This document shows positions 33,745-44,906 of a DNA stretch of 48,172 bases, one piece after another. A model generated the notes under the pieces. The model saw only the letters and a list, made by a program, of their open reading frames with translations, did not search any database and was not told the DNA's origin. Within the stretch, counting starts at the first letter, position 1. Every line of letters begins with the position of its first letter. This stretch comes from Bacteroidota bacterium (GTDB lineage Bacteria > Bacteroidota > Bacteroidia > Bacteroidales > B18-G4), in the NCBI GenBank assembly GCA_018831055.1, contig JAHJRE010000122.1:1-48172 (forward strand). Direction: 5' to 3'. The position numbers were made by a program, and so were the translations under genes.

Positions 33745-34386
33745 ATGGCAGTTTTAGTAGGAAAAAAAGCACCTTTATTTGAAGCCGATGCAGTAATCAA
33801 CGGCGGAGAATTTGTGGAGAAATTCTCCCTTGAGCAGTTCATCGGGAAAAAACATGTAATTTTCTTCTTTTATCCTCTCGACTTCACCTTTGTTTGCCCG
33901 ACCGAAATCCTTGCATTCCAGCAAAAACTGGATGAATTTGAGAAAAGGAATGTGGCTGTTGTCGGTTGTTCCATCGACTCCAAGTTCTCTCACTGGGCCT
34001 GGCTTAACACTCCGGTAGATAAAGGCGGTATCCAGGGCGTTACCTTCCCCATTGTTTCCGACCTTTCCAAAACCATTTCTGAAAACTATGATGTGTTAGC
34101 CGGTGAATATGATTATAACGACGATGGTGAAATGGAATTTGAAGGAGAACCGGTTGCTTACCGCGGTCTCTTCCTCATCGACAAACAGGGGATAGTCCGC
34201 CACCAGGTAGTCAACGACCTTCCGCTTGGCCGTAGCGTAGATGAAACGCTCCGTATGGTTGATGCCCTGCAGTACTTCGAAGAACATGGTGAAGTTTGTC
34301 CGGCCGACTGGCATAAAGGCGACGAAGCCATGCAGGCAACCGCAGAAGGTGTGGCTAATTACCTTGGGAAAAAACATGGTCATTAA
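33745..34386 (+). CDS. 2-Cys peroxiredoxin (AhpC/Prx1 type)
   Basis: A 213-residue cytoplasmic thiol peroxidase that reduces hydrogen peroxide and organic peroxides. The peroxidatic cysteine is C51 in FYPLDFTFVCPTEI and the resolving cysteine is C185 in GEVCPADWHKG. The GG-x-G region (DKGGIQGVTFP) and the C-terminal tail (VANYLGKKHGH) are the features linked to sensitivity to over-oxidation in typical 2-Cys enzymes. Length fits. It is followed directly by a strong terminator. Its reductase is not in the window. Confidence 0.95.
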   Translation: MAVLVGKKAPLFEADAVINGGEFVEKFSLEQFIGKKHVIFFFYPLDFTFVCPTEILAFQQKLDEFEKRNVAVVGCSIDSKFSHWAWLNTPVDKGGIQGVTFPIVSDLSKTISENYDVLAGEYDYNDDGEMEFEGEPVAYRGLFLIDKQGIVRHQVVNDLPLGRSVDETLRMVDALQYFEEHGEVCPADWHKGDEAMQATAEGVANYLGKKHGH

Positions 34387-34401: not shown

Positions 34402-34436
34402 AAAAAAAAGACCGGTTACAACCGGTCTTTTTTTTT
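34402..34436. terminator. Bidirectional intrinsic terminator
   Basis: A run of eight A, a perfect 8-bp stem GACCGGTT/AACCGGTC (34410-34427; in practice a 7-bp stem with a TACA loop), then nine T. It works in both directions: it ends the peroxiredoxin transcript on the plus strand and the glycosidase cluster on the minus strand. It overlaps the stop codon of the GH20-GH92 gene by two bases. Confidence 0.92.
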
Positions 34437-37400
34437 ATTCCACAATAATCTCATCCGCGAATATCCATGCCTTATTCCCCGCTCCTACATGCCATTCGGG
34501 GCAAACACCACGGTTCCGCGCTATTATCTTTATGTACCGGACCTGTTCATTAAGTCCTTGCAACATGAAATCCTTGATGATGCCTCCTTCATACTTCTCA
34601 TCCACATCGTTTTTCACCGTTCCGGCCGCTTGGAAATCATTCTTATCATCCGAGAAATAAAAGCTCACTTCTTCCGGCATAAAAATCCAGGATTTCTGAT
34701 CCTGCAGGAAACCTATCCCAATGACATGGATATCCTGAATCTTTCCTAAATCAAGAATAACCTCAAGGTCAACTCCATAATATCCCTGCCAGAAGCCTGT
34801 CCTGAAATTATCACCTCCCCGCAATTGGTCGATGAGAGCAATATCTCCCCCGGCAGTATATTGAGTGTTGTATGGATTCCTGATCTCCAGACTCCGTCCT
34901 TCCGGCATCTTGTTAAAGGATGCTTCCACAACTTTGCTGGGGACCAGACCTTCTTTCACTGCAAAGGCCTTCAATGTTGTGTTTTCCGTAATAACAAAAG
35001 GAGATGTGTATGTCATCGATTCTGTTGTTGGCTCACTATCATCCAGCGTATAGTAAATGGTGCATCCATCCAGGATGGTTCCCAGCGAAACCTCCATGCT
35101 TTGTGTAAACGTTTTCCCTGTTGCCTTGACAAATGGGACGGGTGTGATCAGAAAATCACGGATGGCCGAATGTGGCCTGTTTTCAGGAGCAACTCCCCAG
35201 GTCGTTGATGGCTCTTTTCCCATATCCAGGATCAGCTCCCCTCCATCCATAATGTCTTCCTGGGTTATGTAACACTTCTCCAACAAAATACCGTTCAAAA
35301 CGGCAGACTGGATATACGGATTGCCTGGGCCGTTGCCCTTTGCTATGAGGGTGAAGGTTTTGCCATTCTCAAGGTTGATCCGTACCGTATCGAAGAGCGG
35401 ACTGCCAATCGCATATTCAGGGATGCCGGGAACCACAGCATACAATCCCATGGCACTCAACACATACCAGGCCGACATTTGTCCGCAGTCTTCATTGCCG
35501 CATAAGCCGTCAGGTTTGTCTGTGTACATCTCTTTCATGATCCTGCGCACAAGCTCCTGTGTTTTCCAGGGCTGGCCTGAGTAATTATACAAATAGGCCA
35601 TATGGTGGCTGGGCTCGTTCCCGTGTGCATACTGCCCTATCAACCCGGTGATATCCGCCTGCTGACGGCCAGCCAGATCCTGAGGAGCATTGAACATCTC
35701 GTCCAGCTTCCGGTTGAATGCTTCCTCTCCTCCCATCAGCTCCATTAAACCTGCAACATCCTGGGGGACAAAGAAATTATATTGCCATGTGTTGGCCTCG
35801 GTGAGCATGAAATTTACTTCGGCCGGGTTAAACGGCTCTACGAACATGCCGTTGATCTTTCCACGCATAAAACCAGTGGATGGATCGTAAAGGTTCTTGT
35901 AATACTGGGCCCGTTGGATAAACTCCTCGTATGTCCCGCTCTTACCAAGCCATTGCCCCATCTGTGCTATACACCAGTCATCGTAAGCGTACTCAAGAGT
36001 TTTGGAAACCGATTCGCCTTCTTTACCTGCCGGGATATACCCATACTGCCTTAAATACTTTAATCCGTGATGATCCTGCCCGGCACTTCGTATCATGGCC
36101 CGTAATGCCAGATCAGCATCATATCCCCGGATACCCTTGGCATAGGCATCCGCAATAACAGGGATAGAATGATAGCCGATCATGCACCAGGTCTCATTGG
36201 CAGCAAGTTCCCATACCGGCAGCAAACCTCCGGTCCGGTATATGTCAAGCATGGTGTTGATAAGCTCGTTGGTCCTCTCCTGCTGTATGATCGTAAAAAG
36301 CGGATGAAGCGCCCTGAAGGTATCCCAGAGCGAAAAGACCGTATAGATATTACCCGTTTTGCTCTCATGTACCTGCAAGTCATGCCCCCGGTATTTGCCG
36401 TCTACATCAGAATATAGGTTCGGTGCTATAAAAGAATGATACAGTGCAGTATAGAAACTTATCCTCTCCTCTTCACTGCCCCCTGATACAGATATCCTTC
36501 CCAGTTCGTCATTCCATTGCACCAGCGCATCCCTGCGTACCTTATTGAAATCAAAACCCGGTATCTCCTGCATCAGGTTTTTGCGGGCATTCTCAGCACT
36601 AACGGCAGAAATTCCCGTCTTGACCATTATAAGCTCGCTGCTGTCGGTACTGAAACTGACATAAGCCTTGAGGTCGTTCCCTTTGGCATGATCCTTACCT
36701 TCCTTTACCTCTCCTGATTCTGCAATTCCAAAATCTTTAAAAGCTTTGCTGAACTCTGCGTAAAAATAGAGGTATTGGTCATCTGCCCAGCCCCTTGTAC
36801 GGCGAAATCCTTCCACCGCCCTGTCGCTCACAATCCTTACCTCCGATTCAATGACCTTATCGCTGGTTACGCCTTCTTTCAGGTCTATCAGCACATGCGA
36901 TTGACCGGATTTGGGGAATACATATCGTTGCAATCCGGCCCTCGGTGTAGCTGTCAGTTCAACGGAAACACCGTAGTCATCCAGAAAAACCTTGTAATAT
37001 CCCGGGGAGGCCGATTCGGTATCATGACGGAAGCGCGACCGGTATCCTGACCCGGGATCCTCCTCACTGCCGGGCATTATTTGCACTTCTCCCGTTCCTG
37101 GCATGAAACGGAAATCACCGTAATCACCTACCCCGGTTCCGCTGAGATGTGTCATACTGAATCCCAGGATGGTACTGTCGGAATAATGATATCCCGAGCA
37201 TCCGTCCCAACTGTCTTTTCGTGTATCCGGACTGAGTTGTACCATACCGAAAGGGGTAGTGGCCCCGGGAAATGTATGCCCGTGACCATCTGTCCCGATG
37301 AAAGGATTCACATAACGGGCATATTCATTGAGTACCTCGAAACGGGTACGGGCTTCTATGCTTTGCCGCCCATCAGGCATGACAGTGCGGGCCCTAACGG

Positions 37401-39159
37401 TCATATCCCTGTCTACCACAAGTTTCCCTGAATATAGTTTTCCTGTACTGTCATCGTCAATGGCTACCCAGACTTTAGCCTGGTGAAAAGGACTTTCCAG
37501 CGTAATAACTGTGTCGTTGGTTAAAAACACTTCACCGTGTGGTAAGCCGGGTTCAGGGATCCTGTAATGATAACCCATGGCATCCAAACGGTCAAAAAGA
37601 TAACCCAGTCTTTCCAGGAAAGAGTCATAATCCCTGCGCTTGGAGGAAGTCCACAGCACCTCCGATAACGCCGACATCCTGGGCAGGGCCATGTATTCAA
37701 GGTGGCTCCAGGTTGGGATGTATTCTGTCCAAAGGTTTCCCTGGCCACCCAGGATAAAGTTCGCCTCTTCTTCATTCAGTGCGGCAGGAACAGGATCAAA
37801 CCCGTAAACCTTTTCCAGGGGAGTAAACCCTCCGATAGCTTTGGGTTCCTGAGAAGGATCACCCTGGTAATAATCAAAATAACAGTGCGATGTCGGACTC
37901 ATCACCACATCATGTCCCTGCTGTGCGGCTTCAATACCGCCGCTGACACCGCGCCACGACATTACGGTGGCTTCCGGCGCCAAACCGCCCTCCAGGATCT
38001 CATCCCAGCCTATGATGCTCTTGCCTTTTCCATTCAGGTATTTCTCCATCCTCTTGATGAAGTAACTCTGCAATTCATGCTCATCGGCCAGTCTTTCTAC
38101 CCGTATCCTGCGCTGGCAATCAGGGCATTTTTCCCATCGGGCTTTCGGACACTCATCCCCACCGATATGGATGTATTTCCCGGGGAACAGTTCCGTCACT
38201 TCATCCAAAATCCCTTCCAGGAAGGTAAAAGTGCCTTCTTTACCGGCACAGTATACGTCTTCGTACACACCCCAGCGGTCGGTGACCTGGAACGGCCCGC
38301 CGGTACAGGAATATTCCGGGTAAGCGGCCAGGGCAGCCAGGCTGTGACCGGGCATTTCAATCTCCGGAACTATGGTTATGTACCGGCTTGATGCGTAATC
38401 AACAATATCCCTGACTTCATCCTGGGTATAATAACCCCCGTAACGGCTTCCGTCGCGGTTCTGTCTCCAGGCAGACACCTCAGCCAGCCGCGGGTATTTT
38501 TTTATCTCTATCCTCCATCCCTGGTCTTCGGTCAGGTGCCAGTGAAAGGTGTTCATCTTGTGCAAAGCCAGCAGGTCAATGAATTTCTTCACCGAGTCGG
38601 CCGGAAAGAAATGCCGGCCTACATCCAGGTGCATGCCGCGCCATTGGAACGCGGGCTTGTCGCGCACGAAGACACAGGGTAAGCGCAGGTCAGATCCTGC
38701 AAGACCACCCTTGCACTCTATCTCCGGAGGCATAAGCTGCAGCATGGTCTGAACCCCGTAAAAAAGCCCCCTGGCTGTGTTAGCCTGCAGGATTACATGG
38801 TTTCTTTTGATCTGCAGGAAATATCCTTCATCTCCCAGGAGGCTGTCGGCCCCCTGCAAAGAAAACAGAATATCATTACTGATACTCTTTACATTGGTAA
38901 CATCTTCTATGGCCAACTCTGTTCCCGTTGATGCAGCGATTTTTTCGGCAAAATAAACTGCCACCTCTTTAGACTCAGGCGCCAACCCATCATATAAAAT
39001 CCTCGTATCTCCGCTAAAATCAAAATATCCTTTATTATCCCAAACATTCCAGGGCTTGGGTATGATGTGGATCTTTTTTACATCGTTCCGGTTGCAGGAT
39101 GTAAAGGCCAACAGGATAATGATTGCCAGAGGGATGGAAATGCGGAAGGAGAGTTTCAT
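34435..39159 (-). CDS. GH20 beta-N-acetylhexosaminidase fused to GH92 alpha-mannosidase, lipoprotein
   Basis: A 1574-residue lipoprotein (signal peptide ending at C22, FTSC). Residues about 30-160 are the GH20 N-domain (IHIIPKPWNVW). The GH20 catalytic domain follows, with FHWHLTEDQGWRIEI and the catalytic pair D335-E336 in HIGGDECPKARW. A small chitobiase-C-like domain spans about 545-610. A GH92 domain begins at YVNPFIGTDGHGHTFPGATT (about residue 611) and contains FSMTHLSGTGVGDYGDF, NEPSHHMAYLY and GNEDCGQMSAWYVLSAMGLY (about residue 1220). A second chitobiase-C-like domain (KAFAVKEGLVPSKVVE) and a C-terminal F5/8-type (discoidin) module complete it. GH20 releases terminal GlcNAc; GH92 enzymes are calcium-dependent exo-alpha-mannosidases. 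Both active sites look intact. It is the last gene of the cluster, 132 bases after the glycosylasparaginase. Confidence 0.9.
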   Translation of the reverse strand: MKLSFRISIPLAIIILLAFTSCNRNDVKKIHIIPKPWNVWDNKGYFDFSGDTRILYDGLAPESKEVAVYFAEKIAASTGTELAIEDVTNVKSISNDILFSLQGADSLLGDEGYFLQIKRNHVILQANTARGLFYGVQTMLQLMPPEIECKGGLAGSDLRLPCVFVRDKPAFQWRGMHLDVGRHFFPADSVKKFIDLLALHKMNTFHWHLTEDQGWRIEIKKYPRLAEVSAWRQNRDGSRYGGYYTQDEVRDIVDYASSRYITIVPEIEMPGHSLAALAAYPEYSCTGGPFQVTDRWGVYEDVYCAGKEGTFTFLEGILDEVTELFPGKYIHIGGDECPKARWEKCPDCQRRIRVERLADEHELQSYFIKRMEKYLNGKGKSIIGWDEILEGGLAPEATVMSWRGVSGGIEAAQQGHDVVMSPTSHCYFDYYQGDPSQEPKAIGGFTPLEKVYGFDPVPAALNEEEANFILGGQGNLWTEYIPTWSHLEYMALPRMSALSEVLWTSSKRRDYDSFLERLGYLFDRLDAMGYHYRIPEPGLPHGEVFLTNDTVITLESPFHQAKVWVAIDDDSTGKLYSGKLVVDRDMTVRARTVMPDGRQSIEARTRFEVLNEYARYVNPFIGTDGHGHTFPGATTPFGMVQLSPDTRKDSWDGCSGYHYSDSTILGFSMTHLSGTGVGDYGDFRFMPGTGEVQIMPGSEEDPGSGYRSRFRHDTESASPGYYKVFLDDYGVSVELTATPRAGLQRYVFPKSGQSHVLIDLKEGVTSDKVIESEVRIVSDRAVEGFRRTRGWADDQYLYFYAEFSKAFKDFGIAESGEVKEGKDHAKGNDLKAYVSFSTDSSELIMVKTGISAVSAENARKNLMQEIPGFDFNKVRRDALVQWNDELGRISVSGGSEEERISFYTALYHSFIAPNLYSDVDGKYRGHDLQVHESKTGNIYTVFSLWDTFRALHPLFTIIQQERTNELINTMLDIYRTGGLLPVWELAANETWCMIGYHSIPVIADAYAKGIRGYDADLALRAMIRSAGQDHHGLKYLRQYGYIPAGKEGESVSKTLEYAYDDWCIAQMGQWLGKSGTYEEFIQRAQYYKNLYDPSTGFMRGKINGMFVEPFNPAEVNFMLTEANTWQYNFFVPQDVAGLMELMGGEEAFNRKLDEMFNAPQDLAGRQQADITGLIGQYAHGNEPSHHMAYLYNYSGQPWKTQELVRRIMKEMYTDKPDGLCGNEDCGQMSAWYVLSAMGLYAVVPGIPEYAIGSPLFDTVRINLENGKTFTLIAKGNGPGNPYIQSAVLNGILLEKCYITQEDIMDGGELILDMGKEPSTTWGVAPENRPHSAIRDFLITPVPFVKATGKTFTQSMEVSLGTILDGCTIYYTLDDSEPTTESMTYTSPFVITENTTLKAFAVKEGLVPSKVVEASFNKMPEGRSLEIRNPYNTQYTAGGDIALIDQLRGGDNFRTGFWQGYYGVDLEVILDLGKIQDIHVIGIGFLQDQKSWIFMPEEVSFYFSDDKNDFQAAGTVKNDVDEKYEGGIIKDFMLQGLNEQVRYIKIIARNRGVCPEWHVGAGNKAWIFADEIIVE

Positions 39160-39291: not shown

Positions 39292-40266
39292 TTATTCCAT
39301 ATAACACTCCGAATCCACAAGCCTGTTTTCACCATCCTGATAAACGGCAAAATCAAATCCCTTGTGGATCGAATAAGCAGCAAATGTACCATCTTTGCGC
39401 AAGGCGAGATAGCCAACCTGCATATTGGAAAGATCGGGATTCTGTTTAATGATCCTGGTTACGGCTTCTTTAACGGCTTCTTCCGGGGTAAGGCCATTAC
39501 GCATCAGCTCTACCACCAGGAAAGACCCCAGTGTCCGCATTACCAGCTCTCCATTGCCTGTAGCCACCGCTCCTCCCACTTCATTGTCGAGAAAAAGCCC
39601 TGCCCCGATAATGGGACTATCCCCTACCCTGCCATGCATCTTGAAACCCATTCCGCTTGTCGTACAAGCCCCGGCCATATTCCCTTGCCCGTCGATGGCC
39701 AGCATGCCGATGGTATCATGGTTCTCAATATTGATCACCGGCTGGTATTTGGCATCTATCAGCCACTCTTTCCAGACTTTTTCCATTTCAGGTGTCAGCA
39801 GGTTTACTTCCGGAAATCCATTTTCCCTGGCAAACTGCAGGGCACCTTCGCCGGCAAGCATCACATGGGGTGTTTTTTCCATCACCAGCCGGGCAACTGA
39901 AATGGGGTGTAATATGTTTTCCAGGAAACATACGGAGCCACAATTGCCATTTTCATCCATGATACACGCATCGAGGGTTACATGACCGTCGCGGTCGGGA
40001 TATCCCCCTATGCCAACACTGTGATTGTCAGGGTCGGCCTCGGTGACCATAACGCCCTTTTCTACGGCATCAAGGGCCCTGCCTCCGGCAGATAACACCT
40101 TCCAGGCTTCTTCATTGGCCTCCAACCCATGATTCCAGGTGGAGATCACAATAGGAGCTCCTTTGCTAACGGTTATTGGATTGGCCGATATCACCGGCTT
40201 CCGGAGTAAAGCGGCCCCGGCAAGCGCCATGGATGAACGTACAATAAATTTCCTTCTGTTGATCAT
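39292..40266 (-). CDS. N4-(beta-N-acetylglucosaminyl)-L-asparaginase (glycosylasparaginase), Tat-exported
   Basis: A 324-residue Ntn-hydrolase precursor that cleaves the bond between GlcNAc and asparagine, the last linkage of an N-glycan. The N-terminus has a twin-arginine signal (INRRKFIVRSSMALAGAA), so export is probably in the folded state. Autocleavage would occur before T185 in NHDTIGMLAIDGQGN, making T185 the new N-terminal nucleophile of the beta chain. Further family text is ACTTSGMGFKMHGRVGDSP, GAGLFLDNEVGGAVATGNGE and the early WNHGLEANEEAW. Layout matches the Flavobacterium enzyme. It begins 6 bases after the sugar permease gene, so the two are cotranscribed. Confidence 0.92.
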   Translation of the reverse strand: MINRRKFIVRSSMALAGAALLRKPVISANPITVSKGAPIVISTWNHGLEANEEAWKVLSAGGRALDAVEKGVMVTEADPDNHSVGIGGYPDRDGHVTLDACIMDENGNCGSVCFLENILHPISVARLVMEKTPHVMLAGEGALQFARENGFPEVNLLTPEMEKVWKEWLIDAKYQPVINIENHDTIGMLAIDGQGNMAGACTTSGMGFKMHGRVGDSPIIGAGLFLDNEVGGAVATGNGELVMRTLGSFLVVELMRNGLTPEEAVKEAVTRIIKQNPDLSNMQVGYLALRKDGTFAAYSIHKGFDFAVYQDGENRLVDSECYME

Positions 40267-40272
40267 GATGGT

Positions 40273-41445
40273 CTAATTGATGCGTAAATTCCTGAACCCC
40301 ACATACAAGATATAGCCGATACAGGCCAGTGGAACAATGAAACTAAACAATACAGAGGTGACCTCCGATAACCCGTTCATCAGCAAGGGTACCAGTGCAC
40401 CCCCCACAATGGCCGTTACCATAAGTCCTGAAAGCTCATTGCTGCGCTCCGGTAAACGTTCGATGGTGATAGAAAAAATCAAGGGGAAAACATTGGCAAA
40501 TCCCAACCCTGTGATGAAAAAACCACTCACAGAAAGGCTTTCATTGCCGGTGAAGATACCCAGTATCCCCAGGATGCTGATCAATGCCGTGATAAGCAGA
40601 AAGGTTTTCGGTTTCAGCCAGTTCAGGATCAAACCACCGGAAAACCGGCCAATGACCAGCGCTGTAAAAAACAATCCGGTACCGAGTAATCCCTTTTCAG
40701 CTATGTTGATGCCAAACTGCTCTTCCAGATAAAGAGGAATGCCCTGACTAACAGACACCTCAGCGCCAACATATAAAAATATCCCCGTCACCATCAACAA
40801 TACATATGGATTTTTAAACAGCAACTCCATGCAGCTTTTAAAAGAGGCATGGGGAGCTTCCTCGTGCCGCTTTTCATTCACCCTGCTCAACGCCAATAAA
40901 ACGATGGTCAGCAAGATAAAAGAACTGTAAATCGGGAAAAGGATCTTCCAGTCGAGACCGAAATAGCTTACCGCTAATGGTGGAATCACCGCGCCCGACA
41001 AAGAACCTATGGCCTTGACAAACTGACCAAGCGACAGATTCCTTGAATATTTTCCTTCCGGTGAGACATCCCGCATGATGGGATTGCCGGCCACCTGAAG
41101 AGTGGCTGCACCGGTGCCCAGGAGAAAAATGGTCACTATAAATACCTCAAACGAATTCAAACTGCCAAATACAGGTATAATCAATCCTAAAAGCGCAATA
41201 ACCAGTCCCAGCATCAATACGAACTTCTTGCCTTTCCTGTCCTGGAATATCCCCATAGGTATCGACAATATCCCGAACATGATAAATCCGAAAAATGTGA
41301 TAAATCCGGCGGTAAAATTCGAGAGCGCAAACTCTTCACGGGCCAGTCCGACAAAAGGACCCACAGCATCACCAAAACCCATGCACAGAAAAGAAAGAAA
41401 GACCGGGACGGTGGCAAACTGAAATTGATTTTTACTTGTTGTCAT
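40273..41445 (-). CDS. Sugar MFS permease, FucP/NagP-like
   Basis: A 390-residue inner-membrane protein with about 12 hydrophobic segments and major-facilitator text: FLSFLCMGFGDAVGPFVGLA, GILSIPMGIFQDRKGKK (the loop 2-3 motif), AATLQVAGNPIMRDVSPEGK, and a second half beginning near KNPYVLLMVTGIFLYVGAEV. The AGNP sequence and overall pattern fit the fucose/glucose/GlcNAc proton symporters (FHS family). Its position directly before a glycosylasparaginase and with hexosaminidase and mannosidase genes suggests GlcNAc or mannose as cargo. This is inference; the residues do not define the sugar. Confidence 0.87.
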   Translation of the reverse strand: MTTSKNQFQFATVPVFLSFLCMGFGDAVGPFVGLAREEFALSNFTAGFITFFGFIMFGILSIPMGIFQDRKGKKFVLMLGLVIALLGLIIPVFGSLNSFEVFIVTIFLLGTGAATLQVAGNPIMRDVSPEGKYSRNLSLGQFVKAIGSLSGAVIPPLAVSYFGLDWKILFPIYSSFILLTIVLLALSRVNEKRHEEAPHASFKSCMELLFKNPYVLLMVTGIFLYVGAEVSVSQGIPLYLEEQFGINIAEKGLLGTGLFFTALVIGRFSGGLILNWLKPKTFLLITALISILGILGIFTGNESLSVSGFFITGLGFANVFPLIFSITIERLPERSNELSGLMVTAIVGGALVPLLMNGLSEVTSVLFSFIVPLACIGYILYVGFRNLRIN

Positions 41446-41514
41446 TGTTCATTTTTTAAACCACACAGAAGAGAGGACTTTCCTTTGCCTTCTCATCCCC
41501 ATGGTATGTTAAAT

Positions 41515-42396
41515 TCAGTTGATTATTATAAATACGGGCTTGTGGTCAGAGATAAAAATCTCTCCCGGCATATTCCCGATTACCCTGTAATCTGAAACAT
41601 TAAAATCTTTCGAAACAAAGATAAAATCAATCAGCGCGTCATTTTCCGGTTTATTGTCAAAGCCGGTGAATGTCGGCAATTCACTTTCTCCGGAACTATG
41701 CGCCATCCTGGAATCCCTCAGGGGGGTACCCAAAATGAGTATTTCCTGATATGGGGTTGTTCCGGGTGAAGTATTGAAGTCGCCGGTTAATATGACCGGC
41801 AATCCTGCGGCCTGCTCCCGGAGACTGTCCTTGATCATTCGGGCACTGTTCAGCCTCGCGGTCTCTCCCACATGATCAAAATGCGTATTGCATACAAAGC
41901 AGCGTTTTCCATCCTGCTTATTTTCCAGGATGGCCCATGTCACTATCCTTTCACAGGCAGCATCCCAGCCCTTGCTTCCGGCAACATGAGGGGTTGCGGA
42001 AAGCCAGTAGTGTCCGTTTTCAAGCATCGTGAATTTATCCTTCAAATAAAGGATAGGAGCATATTCCCCTTTCTCCATGCCATCCAGCCTGCCAACACCA
42101 ACATAATCATAATCCGGCAAGGCTTCCAGGATATCGTTTAACTGCTTGTGCAAAACCTCCTGCAAACCGGCTATATCAGGCTGATAATCCGAAATAACAT
42201 TGCAAACCAAATCTTTCCTGGCTTGCCAGTCATTGGGCTTATCATCCGGGTTATCATAACGTATATTAAAACTTATAACCCTCAATTCCCCGGCTTCCTG
42301 GGAGAATAACCCTGATGCCAGTAAAATAAAGAAGATCATGTGCAAGCACCGTGACCCTATCCCTCTGTTGAAAAAAATCAATGCCCTGTTTCCCAT
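41515..42396 (-). CDS. Secreted endonuclease/exonuclease/phosphatase (EEP) superfamily enzyme
   Basis: A 293-residue protein with an N-terminal hydrophobic export segment (MIFFILLASGLFSQ) and the EEP fold: VISFNIRYDNPDD, GLQEVLHKQ (metal-binding glutamate), CNTHFDHVGETARLNSA (catalytic histidine region), VILTGDFNTSPGTTPY (aspartate/asparagine pair) and ISDHKPVFI (final aspartate-histidine). All key residues are present. EEP proteins cleave phosphodiesters or phosphomonoesters in nucleic acids, lipids or sugars. The gene overlaps the end of the beta-mannosidase gene by 19 bases; an alternative start at 42339 would remove the overlap. In a glycosidase operon a phosphosugar substrate is plausible but unproven. 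Confidence 0.88.
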   Translation of the reverse strand: MGNRALIFFNRGIGSRCLHMIFFILLASGLFSQEAGELRVISFNIRYDNPDDKPNDWQARKDLVCNVISDYQPDIAGLQEVLHKQLNDILEALPDYDYVGVGRLDGMEKGEYAPILYLKDKFTMLENGHYWLSATPHVAGSKGWDAACERIVTWAILENKQDGKRCFVCNTHFDHVGETARLNSARMIKDSLREQAAGLPVILTGDFNTSPGTTPYQEILILGTPLRDSRMAHSSGESELPTFTGFDNKPENDALIDFIFVSKDFNVSDYRVIGNMPGEIFISDHKPVFIIIN

Positions 42397-44906
42397 AACG
42401 ATCTTACCTCTGGTTTTTGAATGTCAAACTGAATATTTCCCTTGGTAAATGCCGATATTTCAATGGTATCACCCGGCAGGAGGTCAAAATAATTCCTGTC
42501 AAACCATACATCCTCACCCGGGTAACTCAGGTGAACATAACGGGCCGGCTTTTCACTGGAGATCAGTATCCTTATCACTTTATCATCCTTTGCAACCTGC
42601 AACCTGAAACCTGGTTCCCTCAAAGATATATTTTTAGCAACAGTAAAGTAATGTATTGCATTGTACTCATCTCCTGCGGCATCAAGCGTGGCTTCCAGTA
42701 TCGCCTTTCCCTCGCCTCCGGCCATTTTTACCATTCCACTTCTGCTTCCTGACCAGATCAGATCAGAACCCGGCTTAACCTGTATATCTCTTTTACTTTC
42801 TTCATAAAGCTTTCCATCGGTATCAAAGAGTTTTATTTCCAGGATGGCGGAAAAGGGCTGATAAACGTCTGAAACAGAATATACAAGCACACTATCTCCC
42901 TTTTCTTCGAATACCAGGATACTTTCCCTGTAGGCTTTTTCCACAAAGTACTGCAAGGCTTTCCAGCGGCCAAAATAATCCCTTCCCGACCAGGAAATCA
43001 CCGGCCAGGTATCGTTCAACTGCCAGTACAAGGTTCCCATGCAACGGGGCATGGCTTTGCGATGTGCTTCCAGGGCTATGCGTATGCCTTCCGCCTGCAG
43101 GATCTGGCTCACATAAACATAATCTTCAAAGCTCTCCGGAACTTCAAACCATCGTTCCATATATTTATCAATCAGCTCAAAGCCTCTCGGGTGCTTTTGA
43201 TGTACTGCCATTACTTCCGAATCCAGCGTTTTGTCCTCCGGTCCGGCAAATGCCTCAATGGTTTGTATATCAGGAAACCCCTGGAAACCATATTCGCTCA
43301 TGAACCTCCCGGTCTTCTCACGGTAAGTCTCAAAAGGGGCTTCCCCCCACCAAACACCCCAGTAATGCGAGTCTCCCTCGGTGTAGGCAATGTCGCGGCC
43401 CCATCCATGCCTGGGTGAAGAGGGATGATATGGCCTCCCGGGATCCAACCGATCCAGCAGACCGGGCAGAATATCATGGAACAGTTCTGTATATGCCTTC
43501 CAGACCGCAGCAGAATCAGCCGGTGAATATCCCAGTTGCTGCTGCCAGCCCCAGTTGTGCCATCCTTCATCAACTTCATTGTTGCCGCACCAGATCACAA
43601 CCGAGGGATGGTTGCGTAAACGGATCACCTGCTCCTCAGCTTCAACCCGCGCATTTTCCAGGAATCCGGCATTCCCGGGATACATATTACAGGCATACAT
43701 GAAATCCTGCCATACCATGATCCCGTATTCATCACATAAATCATAAAATATATCACTCTCGTAAATACCTCCGCCCCAAACCCTTAACATATTCATGTGG
43801 CAGGCGTGGGCATCCAGGATTAAATCCCTGTATTCCTCCTCCGTTACCCGGGTGGTAAAATGATCCATGGGAATATAATTGGCTCCTTTGATAAAAACAG
43901 GCAAGCCGTTGATCCTGAAATAAAAACTTTCACCGAACTCATCTTTTTCCGTGACGAGTTCGGCTGTTCGCAAGCCTATCCTGTCGTCCCGGAAATCCTC
44001 CCGGAGACCGTCGTCGACACTGCATCTCAATGAGTATAATTCAGGACTGCCCATTCCATTGGGCCACCACAAACGTGGATTATCAATGGTGAAACCGAAC
44101 CTGATTTTCTGAATGCCTTTTTCAAGGGAAATTACTTCCTGTGCATATTGCACCCCATTTCCCTTGTCTTTGATGCATATTCTGCATTTCCCCTTGCCGT
44201 CCGAAATGAGCGTAACCCTTGCGCTGATAAAGGCTCTGTCATCGTCAAGGGAATCCACGGTATATGAAACATCATCCAAACGCCACGATTCCCAGGCCTC
44301 CAGGTAAACCGGTTTCCATATGCCGGAGGTAGCCAGTTCCGGCCCCCAGTCCCAGCCAAAATGATAGGGCGCTTTGCGCAGATAGGCCCGGGGATCCGGC
44401 AAGGGTATGCTTGCGGTATCGGCTGCATGATGAATAAATTCCACCGGGGAGTAAAACATCAGGCGGAGAGTGTTGGAACCGGGATTCAGCATGTTTGCTG
44501 CATCCAGTCTCCACTGACGGAACATATTATCCGCTGCTAAAACCCGTGTATCGTTCAGGTAAACATCGCAGCGGGTGTCCAATCCTTCAAAAACAAGGTC
44601 GATATGCGAATTATTCAGGATGTCACCAGCCAGATTGAAGGTATCATAGTAAATCCAATCGTGTTCGCCTATCCATTGGACTTTTTTTTCGTTATCGCCA
44701 TAAAAAGGATCCGGAATGATCCCGGCTTTCATCAGATCGGTATGAACAAAACCGGGAACCTCTGCCGGGCAGGTGGCCAGGGTATCGGACGCACTGACAT
44801 ACCAGCCCGTGTTGAGATCCTGCCTGATAAGTGCCGGTTTCCTGGAAGAACAGGACCCAAGAAGAAGTCCCGTCAAAGCAATAAAAAACAGTGAATAGCT
44901 TTTCAC
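42378..44906 (-). CDS. GH2 beta-mannosidase, lipoprotein
   Basis: An 842-residue exo-glycosidase removing terminal beta-linked mannose, such as the core Man-beta-1,4-GlcNAc of N-glycans. The lipoprotein signal ends at C19 (LLLGSC). It has a jelly-roll sugar-binding domain (WIYYDTFNLAG, FEGLDTRCDVYLND), an immunoglobulin-like domain, and a TIM barrel with acid/base E444 in VIWCGNNEVDEGW and nucleophile E538 in MSEYGFQGFPD. RAYLRKAPYHFGWDWGPEL and LYWQLNDTWPVISW are typical of beta-mannosidases rather than other GH2 enzymes. The C-terminal beta domain is present. It is the first gene of the minus-strand cluster; its promoter should lie in the 88-base divergent gap with mutS2, but no TAnnTTTG is evident there on the minus strand. 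Confidence 0.92.
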   Translation of the reverse strand: MKSYSLFFIALTGLLLGSCSSRKPALIRQDLNTGWYVSASDTLATCPAEVPGFVHTDLMKAGIIPDPFYGDNEKKVQWIGEHDWIYYDTFNLAGDILNNSHIDLVFEGLDTRCDVYLNDTRVLAADNMFRQWRLDAANMLNPGSNTLRLMFYSPVEFIHHAADTASIPLPDPRAYLRKAPYHFGWDWGPELATSGIWKPVYLEAWESWRLDDVSYTVDSLDDDRAFISARVTLISDGKGKCRICIKDKGNGVQYAQEVISLEKGIQKIRFGFTIDNPRLWWPNGMGSPELYSLRCSVDDGLREDFRDDRIGLRTAELVTEKDEFGESFYFRINGLPVFIKGANYIPMDHFTTRVTEEEYRDLILDAHACHMNMLRVWGGGIYESDIFYDLCDEYGIMVWQDFMYACNMYPGNAGFLENARVEAEEQVIRLRNHPSVVIWCGNNEVDEGWHNWGWQQQLGYSPADSAAVWKAYTELFHDILPGLLDRLDPGRPYHPSSPRHGWGRDIAYTEGDSHYWGVWWGEAPFETYREKTGRFMSEYGFQGFPDIQTIEAFAGPEDKTLDSEVMAVHQKHPRGFELIDKYMERWFEVPESFEDYVYVSQILQAEGIRIALEAHRKAMPRCMGTLYWQLNDTWPVISWSGRDYFGRWKALQYFVEKAYRESILVFEEKGDSVLVYSVSDVYQPFSAILEIKLFDTDGKLYEESKRDIQVKPGSDLIWSGSRSGMVKMAGGEGKAILEATLDAAGDEYNAIHYFTVAKNISLREPGFRLQVAKDDKVIRILISSEKPARYVHLSYPGEDVWFDRNYFDLLPGDTIEISAFTKGNIQFDIQKPEVRSLWETGH

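Follow-up and report, generated by a model that had tools for sequence, protein, structure and literature searches.

The described enzyme nearest to the GH20 half of the protein considered here is BT0459 of B. thetaiotaomicron (PDB 6q63), which is the closest solved relative of residues 20–601, including a chitobiase-C-like (CHB) module, and which acts on antennary GlcNAc and cleaves the chitobiose of N-glycans (PMC9522356, PMC10154615). B035DRAFT_00421 of B. massiliensis resembles the same half and also acts on the antennary GlcNAc of N-glycans (PMC9522356, PMC10154615). Unlike the protein described below, neither carries a GH92 domain in its chain, which for BT0459 is 774 aa long. On the other side, Bacteroidales enzymes of the GH92-CHB-discoidin type share the domain set and domain order of residues 610–1574, but they are free-standing enzymes with a signal peptide of their own. 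Within GH92, an α1,2-mannosidase subgroup is recognised by a Trp+Glu+His rule, in which His and Glu belong to the +1 subsite (PMC9522356). The two families meet in a Winogradskyella gene cluster, GH92-GH20-GH2-CE4, which is not a fusion, and literature queries worded exactly for a GH20-GH92 or GH92-GH20 combination turned up no fusion. In the window analysed here, the whole stretch of 48,172 nucleotides, GH20 and GH92 occupy one reading frame.

Domain layout of the fused gene

The gene opens with ATG and runs through 1574 codons with no internal stop (Table 1). The frame being unbroken and Pfam finding both GH20 and GH92 in it, the original prediction of two complete, unrelated catalytic domains in a single lipoprotein-like frame holds. 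At the N-terminus, Cys22 in LAFTSC fits a lipoprotein by inspection alone. Membership in GH20 follows from a GH20b domain together with a GH20 catalytic domain that has the Asp-Glu pair; D335-E336, whose position had been predicted exactly, is invariant across an alignment of 18 sequences. Homology to GH92 starts at about residues 610–612, and this half also matches TIGR01180 (1e-222). It combines the GH92N beta-sandwich with an (alpha/alpha)6 domain holding a candidate acid, E1121 (TEANTW), and a candidate base, D1224 (GNEDCGQ), both in motifs that align with solved GH92s and place it in that family.

A chitobiase-C-like module was expected after each catalytic domain. The second is clear, and the first is real but degenerate: CHB_HEX_C_1 gave it an E value of 0.08, below the Pfam cut-off, for a query in which 17 residues of the GH92 start were placed in front of the first-module stretch. 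This module aligns with the post-GH20 module of BT0459 (phmmer to residue 601; Foldseek over 608 columns), and a fold model of residues 1–860 predicts it as a small beta-domain with strands at 550–607 and pLDDT mostly 60–83; the GH92N part of the model is poor because its alignment had only GH20 rows. A discoidin-like domain closes the chain, much as had been proposed, by homology of the terminal ~150 aa to segments of related proteins recognised as F5/8 type C (discoidin), while the protein's own copy does not reach Pfam E ≤ 1e-3.

Table 1. Features of the fused gene and its neighbours in the window
Feature	Position	Strand	Residues, evidence or remark
GH20-GH92 fusion gene	34435..39159	−	1574 aa; ORF and Pfam
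Signal peptide, lipobox-like LAFTSC, Cys22	39094..39159	−	residues 1-22; sequence and motif position
GH20b	38659..39072	−	residues 30-167; Pfam PF02838, 2e-20
GH20 catalytic domain	37645..38649	−	residues 171-505; Pfam PF00728, 2e-122
GH20 catalytic pair D335-E336	38152..38157	−	GGDEC at 333-337
First chitobiase-C-like module (degenerate) and fusion joint	37333..37542	−	residues 540-609; sequence, fold
GH92 N-terminal domain (GH92N)	36607..37314	−	residues 616-851; Pfam PF17678, 1e-93
GH92 catalytic domain	35215..36591	−	residues 857-1315; Pfam PF07971, 5e-185
Second chitobiase-C domain, CHB_HEX_C_1	34927..35118	−	residues 1348-1411; Pfam, 2e-20
Terminal discoidin-like domain, of GH92 origin	34438..34899	−	residues ~1421-1574; tree, F5/8 matches in homologous regions
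AhpC/peroxiredoxin, convergent	33745..34386	+	also stands at the GH92 end of the locus in relatives
Glycosylasparaginase (GlcNAc-Asn amidase), just upstream of the fusion gene	39292..40266	−	match to 3ljq, E 6e-123
MFS transporter, FucP/GluP/NagP-like	40273..41445	−	
Endonuclease/exonuclease/phosphatase-family (EEP) protein	41515..42396	−	kept in the cluster
GH2 beta-mannosidase, BtMan2A-like	42378..44906	−	match to 2je8, E 6e-200

The locus in relatives and the origin of the joined gene

The window has the order GH2 beta-mannosidase, EEP, MFS, glycosylasparaginase, fusion gene and convergent ahpC. In genomes of the same family the gene order is the same, but GH20 (735–795 aa) and GH92 (993–998 aa) are two genes with about 2–15 kb between them. 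G004, of another genus, has GH2 beta-mannosidase, EEP, MFS, glycosylasparaginase and GH20-CHB-discoidin, then a block of EamA, GH3C/PA14, a CHB/discoidin protein, GH97, MFS, a nucleotidyltransferase and more genes including a LacZ-type GH2, and finally GH92-CHB-discoidin and convergent ahpC, so that about 14 kb lie between GH20 and GH92. The GH20 side of this arrangement is present in G006, while in G005 a single GH3 gene (2 kb) stands between GH20 and GH92, with ahpC next. Glycosylasparaginase is directly upstream of GH20 in G004 and G006, and convergent ahpC comes directly after GH92 in G004 and G005. The window locus is that of the relatives minus the block between GH20 and GH92. The nearest relatives of the GH20 half are GH20s of same-family genomes (clade support 0.93), and a same-genus GH92 is the sister of the GH92 half (support 0.998), so both halves look vertically inherited.

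G001, a genome of the same genus, has glycosylasparaginase followed by one ORF (L033:7587-10742, G001:C21), whose GH92-CHB-discoidin end is cut by the contig end. This ORF opens with a GH20-type start that matches the GH20 signal region of the window (NACDRNDVQKTCIIPRP / IILPLLAVWFLLNACDRNDVQKTCIIPRP; related start NACDRNDVQK), continues with a GH20 scrap, EKVYEFDPVPEELNKE, that matches window residues 449–464, and has a PA14-tail-like stretch before GH92-CHB-discoidin. Start and scrap score best among 138 GH92 N-termini compared with window residues 1–609, the others matching only in signal peptides or weakly. The GH20 domain is absent from the G001 genome and from that of G002, the third of the genus, in which a contig ends inside GH92. 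The label of the PA14-tail-like stretch reflects a by-eye resemblance to the PA14 ends of two other GH92 fusions (L183 and L192, see below); searched alone, the stretch has no Pfam match, and a comparison with the intervening GH3, which has PA14, as its possible source gave no convincing match. On the simplest reading of these sequences, the joined gene would be older than the split between the window and G001, and the GH20 core would have been lost later in G001. Two independent joinings are possible, because the CHB-like linker of the window and the PA14-tail-like linker of G001 do not align.

Taken as a whole, the locus is likely best explained by a genuine head-to-tail fusion within one genus, with a collapse of the locus as its origin and an N-glycan-trimming protein as its product. 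The ancestor would have been an N-glycan/glycoasparagine cluster made of glycosylasparaginase, GH20-CHB-discoidin, a gene block, GH92-CHB-discoidin and convergent ahpC, and the gene order suggests that the block was lost together with the discoidin of GH20 and the signal peptide of GH92, joining the two frames. A sub-case of this explanation, not exclusive with it, is that a real fusion arose as a neutral side effect while the cluster eroded, persists without any advantage of tethering and may be losing its GH20 as in G001. We take this as a serious possibility that falls a little short of probable: G001 lost GH20 by internal in-frame loss, the first CHB module of the window is degenerate and the other enzymes of the block have disappeared, but the catalytic motifs of GH20 are preserved and match those of relatives. 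It seems to us rather unlikely that the protein is a bifunctional exo-glycosidase with real GH20-GH92 coupling, selected in one genus after block loss as part of a lysosome-like glycoasparagine pathway. Were the coupling real, removal of GlcNAc would expose mannose to be taken at once by the second site, and beta-mannosidase and glycosylasparaginase would be the partners of the coupled enzyme in that pathway.

A chimera of two contigs or loci wrongly joined at the domain boundary might be suspected in a draft assembly of 342 contigs whose relatives as a rule keep GH20 and GH92 as separate genes. We consider it very improbable, because both flanks fit the locus order of the relatives and because in G001, an independent assembly, a related joined gene at the corresponding position still has pieces of GH20 in one frame with GH92. 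At the domain boundary the reading frame is preserved exactly, no N is present, and GC is similar on either side of the joint. In the genome of the window itself GH20 occurs once and the missing GH3 has no orthologue (best match 35%), which argues against a mere displacement of the block and so also against misassembly.

The internal order of the domains had been predicted to result from insertion of GH92 and the second chitobiase-C domain between the CHB module and the discoidin of GH20. In a tree of 135 terminal domains, with 126 GH92-linked and 8 GH20-linked ones for comparison, the copy of the fusion protein lies inside the GH92-linked clade, at a distance of 0.29 from its nearest GH92-linked neighbour and 1.65 from the nearest GH20-linked one. 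In dozens of genomes, free-standing GH92-CHB-discoidin ORFs of ~950–1000 aa match residues ~612–1574 over their full length. Since the discoidin is of the GH92-linked clade and GH92-CHB-discoidin is a standard layout, the gene joins, head to tail, a GH20 without its own discoidin and a complete GH92 without signal peptide. The entry of a GH92-CHB cassette into a GH20-CHB-discoidin gene, although compatible with the linear domain order taken alone, is contradicted by this clade and by the end-to-end alignment of residues 610–1574 with free-standing GH92s, as well as by the ahpC that follows the GH92 end in relatives too, and is hardly credible.

Distribution of the architecture

Full-length or junction-spanning queries were run over 149, 395 and 393 genomes in overlapping sets. 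Among the matches listed (about 780 distinct Bacteroidota genomes), the window alone gave one that spans GH20 and GH92, in a search that scored the best few candidates per genome and scarcely sampled phyla beyond Bacteroidota. Likewise, among 144 distinct GH92 ORFs of at least 700 aa in the fetched loci, GH20 is present only in the window frame and its copies. The original prediction left room for the combination being already common; in the Bacteroidota genomes sampled it is not.

As separate genes the two are often neighbours. GH20 is directly upstream of GH92 in L157, L161, L162, L164, L189, L193 and L194, and GH92 is upstream of GH20 in Chitinophaga, where five loci (L090, L092, L096, L098 and L099) taken as full-length fused matches are really two adjacent genes, GH92 then GH20. 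Another candidate, a 1542-aa fused open frame in G716 (L191:2900-7525, G716:C65), was rejected on direct translation, which shows three in-frame stops; its GH20 and GH92 share a frame but are separated by 66 nt that contain these stops, and make a near fusion. The GH20-GH92 fusion is real, and apparently rare and lineage-specific. As far as we have checked, the architecture is new, while the two families are well known, the parts are ordinary, and multicatalytic glycosidases have been known before.

Predicted activity and comparison with known systems

The genes at 39292–44906 make up a compact cluster for glycoasparagine degradation that has no SusC/SusD close by and recalls the lysosomal enzyme set. 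Among the neighbours scanned, at about 22 to 47 kb, SusC/SusD are absent, and by this measure there is no polysaccharide utilisation locus there. An N-glycan context, as proposed originally, is suggested by the adjacent glycosylasparaginase and BtMan2A-like beta-mannosidase and by the closeness of the GH20 half to BT0459, and together with the transporter these neighbours support a predicted role in N-glycan/glycoasparagine degradation. A search of the genome for PNGase F gave no match, but the control likewise matched nowhere, so this negative carries no information.

Judged from sequence, the fusion protein probably removes GlcNAc and mannose from sugars linked to proteins. The product would be one lipoprotein anchored via its N-terminal Cys, presumably in the periplasm or at the surface. 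Its GH20 half is predicted to release non-reducing beta-GlcNAc, both antennary and, once beta-mannose is gone, from the chitobiose core, and its GH92 half to release alpha-mannose. From the known activities of relatives we infer that trimming could begin with antennary GlcNAc (GH20) and pass through alpha-mannose (GH92), beta-mannose (GH2) and chitobiose (GH20) to the last GlcNAc, taken by glycosylasparaginase. With the beta-mannosidase and glycosylasparaginase, the N-glycan core on asparagine would thus end as Man, GlcNAc and Asn.

The solved GH92s nearest to the GH92 half are 6f91, BT3130 (6f8z) and 7zgm, a plant-N-glycan alpha1,3-mannosidase of B. massiliensis with which it has the stretch QADxTGLIGQYAHGNEPSHH in common. 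The His-Glu pair of the +1 subsite in alpha1,2-enzymes we take to be the HE of VIHEI in 2wvx and 2wvy. At this presumed position the window reads GRQQADI, without the His and Glu of the alpha1,2 subgroup. This hints that the GH92 half probably does not have the alpha1,2-specific pattern and may act on another linkage, as in 7zgm.

The steps by which two unrelated glycosidases fused can be read from living relatives, as a series from separate genes with a large gap, through separate genes with a small gap, to a gene fused with both domains and one fused with one of them decayed. The protein also lends itself directly to testing whether N-glycan trimming becomes faster when two sequential exo-enzymes are joined.

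Four other Bacteroidota frames met in this analysis join GH92 to a different catalytic domain, in part with CHB/PA14 modules, and none of the four has GH20. L183:1429-7440 (G030:C14) is a 2004-aa ORF of DUF3089, GH92, chitobiase-C, PA14 and a second GH92, and L192:1453-5220 (G015:C28) a 1256-aa ORF of GDPD (glycerophosphodiester phosphodiesterase), GH92, chitobiase-C and PA14. L185:3762-7298 and L186:349-3927, whose two genomes belong to a different class within the phylum, are GH92-GH47 fusions that unite two mannosidase families, and a GH20 gene also lies near the former. Two described proteins also invite comparison. EndoE of Enterococcus faecalis (GH18-GH20) has, like the fusion protein, a GH20 and a second N-glycan-active domain in one secreted chain, the two acting in concert (PMC8894350), but there GH20 is paired with an endo-acting GH18 instead of an exo-alpha-mannosidase, and the helical linker is unrelated. 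StrH of Streptococcus pneumoniae (SpGH20A + SpGH20B) likewise brings two exo-acting domains for N-glycan trimming into one surface chain (PMC10154615), in this case two hexosaminidases that both belong to GH20.
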